A stretch of 39,065 bases of DNA from Chitinophagaceae bacterium (GTDB lineage: Bacteria > Bacteroidota > Bacteroidia > Chitinophagales > Chitinophagaceae). Every line of letters begins with the position of its first letter. Position 1 is the stretch's first letter. The stretch lies in contig JANYEB010000122.1 in NCBI GenBank assembly GCA_025363355.1, positions 1 through 39,065 on the forward strand, read 5' to 3'. The notes under the pieces were generated by a model, which did not search any database, was not told where the DNA came from, and was given only the letters and a program-made list of their open reading frames with translations. Both the position numbers and the translations under genes were made by a program. Shown piece by piece: positions 15,499 through 20,384 of this stretch.

Positions 15499-16776
15499 AT
15501 GAATTTAATAGAAGAACTACGTTGGAGAGGAATGATTCAGGATATAATGCCTGGAACTGAAGAACAATTAAACAAGGAACTTACAAGTGCTTATGTTGGG
15601 TTTGACCCGACTGCTGATAGCCTGCATATTGGTAGCCTTGTTCCTATCTTATTATTAAAACACCTTCAAATTTGTGGACACAAACCTTATGCTTTAGTGG
15701 GTGGTGCAACAGGAATGGTGGGTGACCCAAGTGGTAAAAGCGAAGAAAGGAATTTATTAAGTGAAGATGTTTTAAATCATAATGTAAAGGGCATTCAGTC
15801 TCAATTGGAGAAATTTCTTGACTTTAATACTTCAATACCCAATGCTGCTGAAATTGTAAATAATTACGATTGGTTTAAAAACTTTACGTTTCTAAACTTT
15901 ATCAGGGATGTAGGCAAACACATTACTGTTAACTATATGATGAGTAAAGACAGTGTGAAAAAAAGATTGGAAGGTGACACAGGAATGAGCTTTACCGAAT
16001 TTACTTACCAATTAGTTCAGGGTTATGATTTCTACTATTTGAACCTGCATAATAACTGCAAACTACAAATGGGGGGCAGCGATCAATGGGGCAATATTGT
16101 TACAGGAACTGAATTGATAAGACGAAAAAGTGGAGGAGAAGCTTTTGCCTTTACCTGCCCTTTAATCACTAAAGCAGATGGTGGCAAGTTTGGCAAAACC
16201 GAAAAAGGAAATATTTGGTTAGATGCTACTAAAACTTCGCCTTACCAATTCTATCAGTTTTGGTTGAATAGTAGCGATGTAGATGCAGAAAAATGGATTA
16301 AAATCTTCACTTTGCTACCAAAAGAAGAAGTTTTTGCAATTATTAATGCACATAAACAAGACGAAAGCAAAAGATTATTGCAAAGAAGATTAGCAGAAGA
16401 AGTTACAAAATTTGTTCACGGAGCAGATGAATTGCAATTGGCTATTGAAACAACCGAAAAACTATTTGCCAACCAAAATGCTGCTGCCGAAAGTTTAAGT
16501 GTTGAAGATTTAGAAGCAATGGAAGGAATTGTTAGAATTTCTTATGAATCACTTAAAATTAACGAAGAAATTGATATTGTTAGCTTTTTAGCAGAAACTA
16601 CTATTTTGCCAAGTAAAGGCGAGGCTAAAAAAATGGTTCAAAATGGAGGTATTCAAATCAATCGAAACAAAGTAGAAGATTTACAAATGAAACTGAATGC
16701 TTCAATGTTGCTTCATAATAAATATTTATTGGTGCAAAAAGGAAAGAAAAACTACTATTTGGTAGAGGTGAAGTAA
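15499..16776 (+). CDS. tyrS: Tyrosyl-tRNA synthetase
   Basis: Class I aminoacyl-tRNA synthetase that charges tRNA-Tyr with tyrosine. The 425-residue protein has the HIGH-type motif as HIGS (43-46), the tyrosine-binding region YALVGGATGMVGDPSGK (64-80), QMGGSDQWGNI (190-200) and the KMSKS-type loop as KFGKT (230-234). A C-terminal S4-like RNA-binding domain occupies about residues 355-425 (LPSKGEAKKMVQNGGIQINR). The KFGKT form marks the bacterial TyrRS of the TyrS type. It lies 76 bases after tRNA-Ser and ends in a strong palindromic terminator at 16802-16826. Confidence 0.96.
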   Translation: MNLIEELRWRGMIQDIMPGTEEQLNKELTSAYVGFDPTADSLHIGSLVPILLLKHLQICGHKPYALVGGATGMVGDPSGKSEERNLLSEDVLNHNVKGIQSQLEKFLDFNTSIPNAAEIVNNYDWFKNFTFLNFIRDVGKHITVNYMMSKDSVKKRLEGDTGMSFTEFTYQLVQGYDFYYLNLHNNCKLQMGGSDQWGNIVTGTELIRRKSGGEAFAFTCPLITKADGGKFGKTEKGNIWLDATKTSPYQFYQFWLNSSDVDAEKWIKIFTLLPKEEVFAIINAHKQDESKRLLQRRLAEEVTKFVHGADELQLAIETTEKLFANQNAAAESLSVEDLEAMEGIVRISYESLKINEEIDIVSFLAETTILPSKGEAKKMVQNGGIQINRNKVEDLQMKLNASMLLHNKYLLVQKGKKNYYLVEVK

Positions 16777-16801: not shown

Positions 16802-16826
16802 GCGTGAATATTCACGCAATTTTTTT
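16802..16826 (+). terminator. Intrinsic terminator of tyrS
   Basis: The perfect palindrome GCGTGAATATTCACGC (16802-16817) is followed by AA and seven Ts, 26 bases after the tyrS stop codon. Confidence 0.85.
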
Positions 16827-16834
16827 AGCCTGAA

Positions 16835-17044
16835 TTTCCGGCAAGCCAGCAACAACTGTTTTTTTCGTGCCTGGGTTTCCGGCAAACAAATCACAACTAA
16901 TATTTTCGCCACGGAATTTCCGCCAAATAAACCACAACTGTTTTTTTTGTGCCTGAGTTTCCGGCAAGCTTTTACAACTAATATTTTCACCACGGAATTT
17001 CCGGCAAAGAAATATTAGTTAATGTTGGCTTGCCGGAAATTCCG
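16835..17044. repeat. 41-bp tandem array with 82-bp alternating unit and terminal inverted copy
   Basis: The word TTTCCGGCAA (once TTTCCGCCAA) starts at 16835, 16876, 16917, 16958 and 16998, giving spacings of 41, 41, 41 and 40. Each of the first four units also contains ACAACT, then a T-rich stretch. Units 1 and 3 continue GTTTTTTT..GTGCCTG; units 2 and 4 continue AATATTTTC..CCACGGAA, so the real period is an 82-bp dimer. Unit 5 pairs with an inverted copy: CGGAATTTCCGGCAA (16993-17007) against TTGCCGGAAATTCCG (17030-17044), a perfect 15-bp stem. No protein is encoded; 41 is not a multiple of three and open frames here are incidental. The remaining 17045-17198, before grpE, shows nothing notable. 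Confidence 0.9.
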
Positions 17045-17198
17045 CCTAAAGAATTAGGCTTATCGATACACCTTATTTCAATAAAATCCAAAGAAGCAAC
17101 CATAATTGACGCTACACCTAAAACTTATCTGCCATTTTTTCCTCTTTATTTCCTTGGCAACAAAATTGACAATACTACCAAAATATTTAAAATAAGCT

Positions 17199-17756
17199 AT
17201 GCAAGAGAACGATATTGTAGAAAATGTAACAGAAACTACACAAACAAATTTAAATACTGACGAAAATGCAGCAGATACAACAACCGTAGAAGAAACAGTT
17301 GTTGAGAGTGAAACAGATAAACTTCAAGCTGATTTGGCTGAACAAAAAGACAAATACTTACGTTTAATGGCTGAGTTTGAGAATTACAAACGCAGAACAT
17401 CTAAAGAAAGAATTGAACTTATTCAAACTGCTGGAAAAGATGTAATTGTTTCTATGCTTGATGTATTGGATGATGTTGACAGAGCCGAAAAACAACTTAC
17501 ATCAAGCGATGATATTGCTGTTCAAAAAGAAGGAATTCAACTTGTTTTTAATAAAATAAGAACCAGTTTATACTCAAAAGGAGTTAAAGTAATGGAAAGT
17601 GTAAATACAGATTTTGATGTTGAAAAGCACGAAGCAATTACAGAAATTCCTGCTCCATCAAACAAACAAAAAGGTAAGGTTTTAGATGAAGTTCAAAAAG
17701 GATATTATCTAAACGACAAATTGATAAGATTTGCAAAAGTGGTTGTAGGAAATTAA
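17199..17756 (+). CDS. grpE: Nucleotide exchange factor GrpE
   Basis: Co-chaperone that releases ADP from DnaK. The 185-residue protein has an acidic, unstructured N-terminus (about 1-40), a coiled-coil helix (about 40-80) containing the family segment LMAEFENYKRRTSKER (56-71), and a C-terminal beta domain with ITEIPAPSNKQKGKVLDEVQKGYYLNDKLIRFAKVVVGN-type features: VQKGY and the LIRFAKVVV end. I chose the ATG at 17199. It lies upstream of dnaJ on the same strand, and the 89-base gap between them is wholly occupied by an echo inverted repeat. No CIRCE operator is visible upstream. The 41-bp array ends about 150 bases before the start. Confidence 0.94.
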   Translation: MQENDIVENVTETTQTNLNTDENAADTTTVEETVVESETDKLQADLAEQKDKYLRLMAEFENYKRRTSKERIELIQTAGKDVIVSMLDVLDDVDRAEKQLTSSDDIAVQKEGIQLVFNKIRTSLYSKGVKVMESVNTDFDVEKHEAITEIPAPSNKQKGKVLDEVQKGYYLNDKLIRFAKVVVGN

Positions 17757-20015: not shown

Positions 20016-20364
20016 AACTACAAACCCGAGCTATCGCTTTATTTATAAAGAGGAAAGTCCGGACAGCATAGAGCAATTTACTGGTTAATAGCCAGGTCTT
20101 GTTTACAAGAACAGAAAGTGCCACAGAAAATAACCGCCATTTATGGTAAGGGTGAAAATGTAGGGTAAGAGCCTACGGTATATTGCAGTAATGTAGTATA
20201 TGGGTAAACCTTAAATGCTGTAATGCCACGTATAGGTGCTTTAAGAGCTGCTCGTTCAAGACTGAAAAGTGAGTACCAGGGTAGGCAGCAAGATTTAGTT
20301 AGTAATAACTAAGCTAGATAAATGATAGTTTAGAAACAGAATCCGGCTTATGAGGTTTGTAGTT
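20016..20364 (+). ncRNA. rnpB: RNase P RNA (M1 RNA, bacterial type A-like)
   Basis: Catalytic RNA of RNase P, which matures tRNA 5' ends. The P1 helix pairs AACTACAAACC (20016-20026) with GGTTTGTAGTT (20354-20364). Conserved blocks occur in order: GAGGAAAGTCCGGAC, AGTGCCACAGAAA, GGTAAGAGCCTACGG, and finally GATAAATGATAG...ACAGAATCCGGCTTA. The length of about 349 nt is normal. T-rich sequence follows. It is convergent with pyrF, only about 20 bases from its stop codon. End points are inferred from P1 and may differ by a few bases. Confidence 0.95.
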
Positions 20365-20384
20365 ATATTTTTTATTTGAGTTAA

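Follow-up and report, generated by a model that had tools for sequence, protein, structure and literature searches.

Between the tyrS and grpE genes of a member of the Chitinophagaceae lies a tandem array of units of about 41 bp, and the question is whether this array is a functional element or an ordinary minisatellite. The window, by which is meant the whole stretch of DNA analysed (39,065 nucleotides), is contig JANYEB010000122.1 of assembly GCA_025363355.1.

The array between tyrS and grpE

The features of the locus, in window coordinates, are as follows.

15499–16776, plus strand: tyrS, upstream neighbour of the array; an ORF, with 78–91% identical proteins in three genus mates
16802–16825, plus strand: intrinsic terminator of tyrS, GCGTGAATATTCACGC followed by a T-run, directly preceding the array
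16828–17044, no strand: the array, units of ~41 bp in alternating A/B (82-bp) order, from TRF periods of 41 and 81 and from direct and inverted repeats
16832–16838, no strand: GAATTTC dyad box 1, from the sequence; the motif class was tested separately
16835–16875, plus strand: unit A, core TTTCCGGCAA, from sequence and repeats
16876–16916, plus strand: unit B, from sequence and repeats
16914–16920, no strand: GAATTTC dyad box 2, from the sequence
16917–16957, plus strand: unit A', core TTTCCGCCAA with one mismatch, from sequence and a core search
16958–16997, plus strand: unit B', 40 bp, from sequence and repeats
16995–17001, no strand: GAATTTC dyad box 3, from the sequence
16998–17029, plus strand: last unit, truncated, from sequence and repeats
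17030–17044, minus strand: inverted core copy, perfect 15-bp stem with 16993–17007, from a reverse-complement check
17036–17042, no strand: GAAATTC dyad box in the inverted copy, from the sequence
17044–17059, no strand: small hairpin GCCTAA-AGAA-TTAGGC abutting the array, without a T-run, from folding
17199–17756, plus strand: grpE, downstream neighbour; an ORF, with relatives in 39 of 41 genomes

Direct copies of the core begin at 16835, 16876, 16917, 16958 and 16998, as the first-pass annotation of this DNA had it, except that the copy at 16917 is inexact, and an inverted copy lies at 17030–17039. The spacings of 41, 41, 41 and 40 bp given there are correct. So is the 82-bp dimer order, which is supported because TRF scores the dimer (period 81/82, 87% matches, score 252) above the monomer (period 41, 70% matches, zero indels, score 154). 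The perfect 15-bp stem was likewise recovered, 16993–17007 being the exact reverse complement of 17030–17044. The core forms the right half of the palindromic box GAATTTC, and the first unit pairs with the right end of the array across ~20 bp. Two further points of the same annotation are corrected: it had denied any variability of the spacers, whereas the block of 6–8 bp behind each core is different in every unit (GCCAGCA, ACAAATC, ATAAACC, GCTTTT), and the terminator of tyrS directly precedes the array.

The periodicity of the array is beyond chance, because its lag-41 identity of 0.59 (shuffles: mean 0.27, maximum 0.36) and its TRF scores exceed those of all shuffles, the top score among 300 dinucleotide shuffles being 65. 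The stem taken alone is weaker evidence, because a 15-bp perfect inverted repeat also appears in 9 of 300 shuffles.

A single locus carries the array in its own 3.6-Mb genome. No homologue was found in three genus mates, in 395 other genomes of the family, or in phages or plasmids, and no Rfam model matched over 16.8–17.1 kb; the array is therefore specific to its lineage. The first-pass annotation had tied a functional reading to conservation of the cores in relatives, and the array fails that test, because neither genus nor family holds a homologue. Most blastn matches in the family were short chance matches, nearly all within open frames, and a viral pattern match (L105) was a chance occurrence inside an apparent phage tape-measure gene. 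Arrays of 18 bp containing the same 10-mer are present in several viral contigs (L227, L229, L234, L255 and others); these arrays probably code for 6-residue repeats in phage proteins, and were set aside as coding repeats.

In none of the three genus mates does grpE follow tyrS, and they carry no such array either 3' of tyrS or 5' of grpE; conserved synteny of the two genes was rejected. By these comparisons, the array is a lineage-specific feature of a junction not seen in relatives.

The start of grpE lies 155 bp past the end of the array. Between the two, at 17129–17169, an intact element was observed, an inverted repeat CTGCCA...TTGGCA followed by TTGGCAACAAAATTGA, which resembles a sigma-54 (-24/-12) site and is conserved in varied form among genus mates and other genomes of the family (G001–G003, G006 and G014). 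Farther along the window, downstream of dnaJ and ABC-transporter genes, a class A RNase P RNA is found at 20018–20366 (plus strand).

Periods of the arrays in the host genome and in relatives

The suggestion that a period close to four helical turns reflects helical phasing was supported by a TRF survey of non-coding arrays with base periods of 15–130 bp. In 1.07 Mb of the host genome, the period is close to a multiple of 21 bp in 26 of the 32 arrays. The corresponding counts are 14/15 in two termite-gut Tannerellaceae MAGs (240 kb), 1/2 in four other family genomes (400 kb) and 0/5 in genus mate G001 (320 kb). Averaged over 23 arrays, autocorrelation peaks at exactly lag 21 (0.54), lag 42 (0.67) and lag 63 (0.49), over a background of 0.27, and is flat elsewhere. 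The substitution:indel ratio in the host-genome arrays is ordinary (~13:1), and therefore selection for phase is not demonstrated.

The host-genome arrays are mutually unrelated in sequence, save for the pairs L297/L380 and L270/L295, and most of them are 21-bp direct repeats beside other genes; such a 21-bp repeat is absent from the unit of the window array. The window array has an inverted unit within it, and so does just one further array among those sampled. Two candidate traits of these arrays were rejected. Short-loop palindromes do not characterize them all, dyad symmetry being a property of the DUF6261 arrays described below, and there is no cognate LytTR regulator beside each array, since only one of the 19 neighbour proteins scanned is a LytTR protein, and it lies 447 bp from its array.

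Arrays of 21/42 bp were also observed in the host genome 57–200 bp upstream of ORFs of ~220–240 aa without a Pfam match (L286:9053-9188, L289:17599-17832, L302:984-1175, L380:4676-4883, L288:14120-14371 and L307:16375-16612). These ORFs of about 230 aa are not DUF6261, and with their arrays they possibly constitute a second array–gene family. The paralogues at L286 and L370:9208-9792 each keep an array, with unrelated sequences. The array upstream of the L370 ORF (9208–9792, minus strand) is a degenerate 42-bp one, in which the palindrome CAAGTAGG-NNN-CCTACTTG is conserved and the spacer has diverged, and which shows a matched two-sided change between units.

Arrays upstream of DUF6261 genes

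When 84,980 genomes were scanned for pairs of cores 36–56 bp apart, 40–42-bp tandem arrays turned up in termite-gut Tannerella and others. In the host genome, one of the 41-bp arrays (L270) has as its neighbour a member of the Pfam family DUF6261 (E 3e-25). The family is rare among relatives, occurring in 3 of 41 genomes including the host, and in 14 of 396 in a wider family set. The host has three copies, on contigs C129, C126 and C154, each with an upstream array. All six array-rich genomes of Tannerella(ceae) and Puniceicoccales contain DUF6261, in 3–44 copies, against none of four other genomes giving a match and none of 14 control genomes. No relatives of DUF6261 were found in viral contigs.

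When an array is defined as a strong 20–22/40–43-bp periodicity within 400 bp of a DUF6261 gene, 30 of 38 genes in the discovery set have one upstream and 1 of 37 downstream (Fisher 2e-12). For 22 loci of 11 further genomes, taken as an independent set, the values are 18/22 upstream and 3/22 downstream, and the strongest of all lags from 15 to 66 is 41–43 in each of the 18 upstream arrays. By the same measure, ordinary genes of the host genome (at least 150 aa) have arrays in 5.5% of cases upstream and 5.9% downstream. An upstream array is missing, by this measure, at 8 of the 38 and 4 of the 22 DUF6261 genes. The arrays usually lie ~25–350 bp upstream of the gene, mostly less than 140 bp. Examples in isolates are a 41-bp array of 3.6 copies in Prevotella nigrescens (NZ_CP082843) and a 42-bp array of 4.0 copies in Parabacteroides distasonis (NZ_OY725748), where a second DUF6261 gene has at most a degenerate array. 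A Bacteroidota -7 box (TAnnTTTG) stands between array and start codon in a minority only. In one family genome (G264), two DUF6261 genes, L443 and L450, were observed to have a 41-bp array downstream instead of upstream.

The units of these arrays tend to be their own reverse complements: 12 of 26 are so at p < 0.05 (Fisher 3e-9), and in the independent set 7 of 18 are dyad-symmetric (Fisher 2e-5). A core of the form GAA-N1-3-TTC, often AAGCTTTC, is present in 13 of 28 units (shuffles: mean 0.9, maximum 5) and in 4 of the 18 independent ones (shuffles: mean 0.5, maximum 3), these counts being for a motif picked after inspection of the data; it is absent from nine direct-repeat arrays. The symmetry seems to belong to the DNA and not to one RNA strand, because one-sided changes leading to G-U and to A-C are equally frequent (21 versus 20). 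With compensatory changes in only 4 cells against 892 unchanged, nothing suggests that an RNA fold is under selection.

The arrays are thus shown to be phased, to sit upstream of DUF6261, to tend towards dyad symmetry and to share a core of the GAA-N-TTC type, and a class of DUF6261-linked phased arrays, each with a sequence of its own locus, is well supported. Conservation concerns architecture, namely the period, the dyad, the short core and the place before DUF6261 genes, and not sequence. The search of the genome and its relatives that had been proposed earlier for the window array therefore has a divided outcome: its sequence recurs nowhere, and its architecture is conserved before DUF6261 genes.

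The window array agrees with the class in its periods (41 and 81; lag-41 identity as given above), in the self-complementarity of its unit consensus (0.63, p ~0.002), and in having four boxes of the GAA-N1-3-TTC type, a motif present in only 13/28 and 4/18 of the class; its host genome carries DUF6261. There is no DUF6261 gene ~25–350 bp beyond it, grpE being next, and in sequence it does not match any of the three arrays found at DUF6261 genes in its genome. It is accordingly called an orphan and not a full member, because no DUF6261 gene adjoins it. Orphan arrays do occur, since a second one in the host genome (L295) shares 82% identity with an array that belongs to a DUF6261 gene in another part of that genome. 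The window array thus probably belongs to the DUF6261-linked class, as an orphan, with the provision that assigning a single array carries error, because most of the other host arrays consist of 21-bp direct repeats and lie next to other genes.

Possible function and alternative explanations

A symmetric protein that binds cooperatively would require a period of four turns, a dyad, a short core and an upstream place. The favoured reading is that each array is a double-stranded DNA platform offering 2–8 equivalent sites on one helical face, 41–43 bp being about four turns of B-DNA, to which such a protein would bind cooperatively and so control the linked gene. The first candidate for this protein is the linked DUF6261 protein itself, because the array sequences are locus-specific and diverge, weakly, together with the protein (Mantel r 0.23, p 0.001, with few pairs driving the signal); the gene would then be autoregulated. 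The copy in the window could be a site acting in trans, or the remnant of a cassette that has lost its gene. The first-pass annotation had also suggested a nucleoid element; one of a general kind is less probable than an element that is tied to a gene and has orphan copies. The binding model is held with lower confidence than the membership of the window array in the class, and the two combined, the array as a dyad-symmetric 41–43-bp orphan and as a putative platform for a cooperative symmetric protein controlling the linked gene, fall a little short of an even chance.

More tentatively still, the arrays and proteins might form a two-part system, in which each DUF6261 protein is paired with its own phased palindromic array and orphans such as that between tyrS and grpE are putative trans-acting sites. 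Such a system would span the Bacteroidales, the Bacteroidota family of the window and a MAG labelled Puniceicoccales, with up to 44 DUF6261 copies per genome, and its array sequences would change fast while period, symmetry and position are kept.

The strongest alternative, although an unlikely one, is an ordinary lineage-specific minisatellite without function, grown by slippage and unequal exchange, the 41-bp period reflecting a replication or recombination enzyme that favours duplications of that length. The lack of homologues in relatives and the ordinary ratio of substitutions to indels agree with this, and satellites that are unique to a genome and unrelated to one another are known in prokaryotes. 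The passages of Subirana and Messeguer (2019; PMC6749651) used here describe them as tandem arrays, often unrelated within one genome and patchy between species, as are the present arrays. Unlike those satellites, the present arrays have periods clustering at 21 and 41–43 bp, and the dyad-symmetric ones go with the 5' flank of the genes of a single protein family, a link that goes unmentioned in those passages. A minisatellite origin leaves unexplained why 79–82% of DUF6261 genes have an array upstream and few have one downstream, as well as the dyad symmetry and the shared core; the orphan copy in the window, taken by itself, could still be such a minisatellite.

An RNA model is improbable. 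It is suggested by the type III toxin–antitoxin loci (ToxIN, CptIN, TenpIN), in which a tandem array stands directly upstream of a small gene and varies in sequence by locus, as it does here; the array would be transcribed and cut into hairpins of ~41 nt that bind or inhibit the protein encoded downstream. Many units of the DUF6261 arrays can indeed fold as whole-unit hairpins, and the whole window array folds with z values of -6.5 and -5.2 on its two strands. The wobble changes without strand bias and the scarcity of compensatory changes, however, argue against RNA-level selection, and the units are degenerate, some being only 60–70% identical. The gene concerned is DUF6261, whose proteins match no PADLOC model, and among PDB chains only a 63-residue stretch of one, BibA, is similar (E 0.0014). 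No toxin gene of the ToxN, CptN or TenpN type follows the window array, where grpE stands.

Least probable is the remnant of a small mobile element, with the inverted ends of ~20 bp (16832–16851 and ~17023–17043) as putative terminal inverted repeats and inner units as putative transposase-binding sites, since the inverted ends, and a tyrS–grpE junction unique to the host species among the genus members examined, are set against similar units inside the array, an inverted unit in only one other sampled array, and the lack of any relative of this single-copy array elsewhere in the genome, genus, family, phages or plasmids, where a MITE or insertion sequence would have further copies or related elements.

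Other known repeat systems share some of these features. Operator and iteron arrays, such as the LytTR-type direct repeats ~21 bp apart, have the same whole-turn spacing of sites, short conserved core and variable spacer; there one regulator normally has one consensus, whereas here every locus has its own. The REP/BIME elements with their RAYT transposases consist, like the present arrays, of palindromic repeats that lie between genes and are associated with a protein family, but a REP is one sequence dispersed genome-wide. The DUF6261 arrays are neither uniform nor dispersed, and the window array is confined to its single locus. It does not resemble a CRISPR, in which near-identical repeats alternate with unique spacers of ~30 bp, its whole unit being repetitive and its variable block only 6–8 bp, and no cas genes were seen among the ORFs of the window.

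A literature search gave no report of a link between arrays and DUF6261, which was mentioned only in an unrelated context. As far as could be found, the link to the gene, the symmetry and the fixed period are undescribed. DUF6261, a multi-copy family of unknown function, thereby gains a first functional handle, a linked DNA array with measurable period and symmetry, and one that is present in the culturable Parabacteroides distasonis and Prevotella nigrescens. It is also seen that intergenic repeats unrelated in sequence can share a strict helical period of two or four turns within one genome. This makes it possible to test directly the old question whether minisatellites of bacteria are junk or serve as platforms for proteins.

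As to the proteins themselves, some DUF6261 members (at L399, L402, L411, L416, L421, L422 and L426), in which a signal peptide is not obvious, have a C-terminal stretch like bacterial Ig-like domains (DFTVTYKNN...GKGKYKG...TVTFII).
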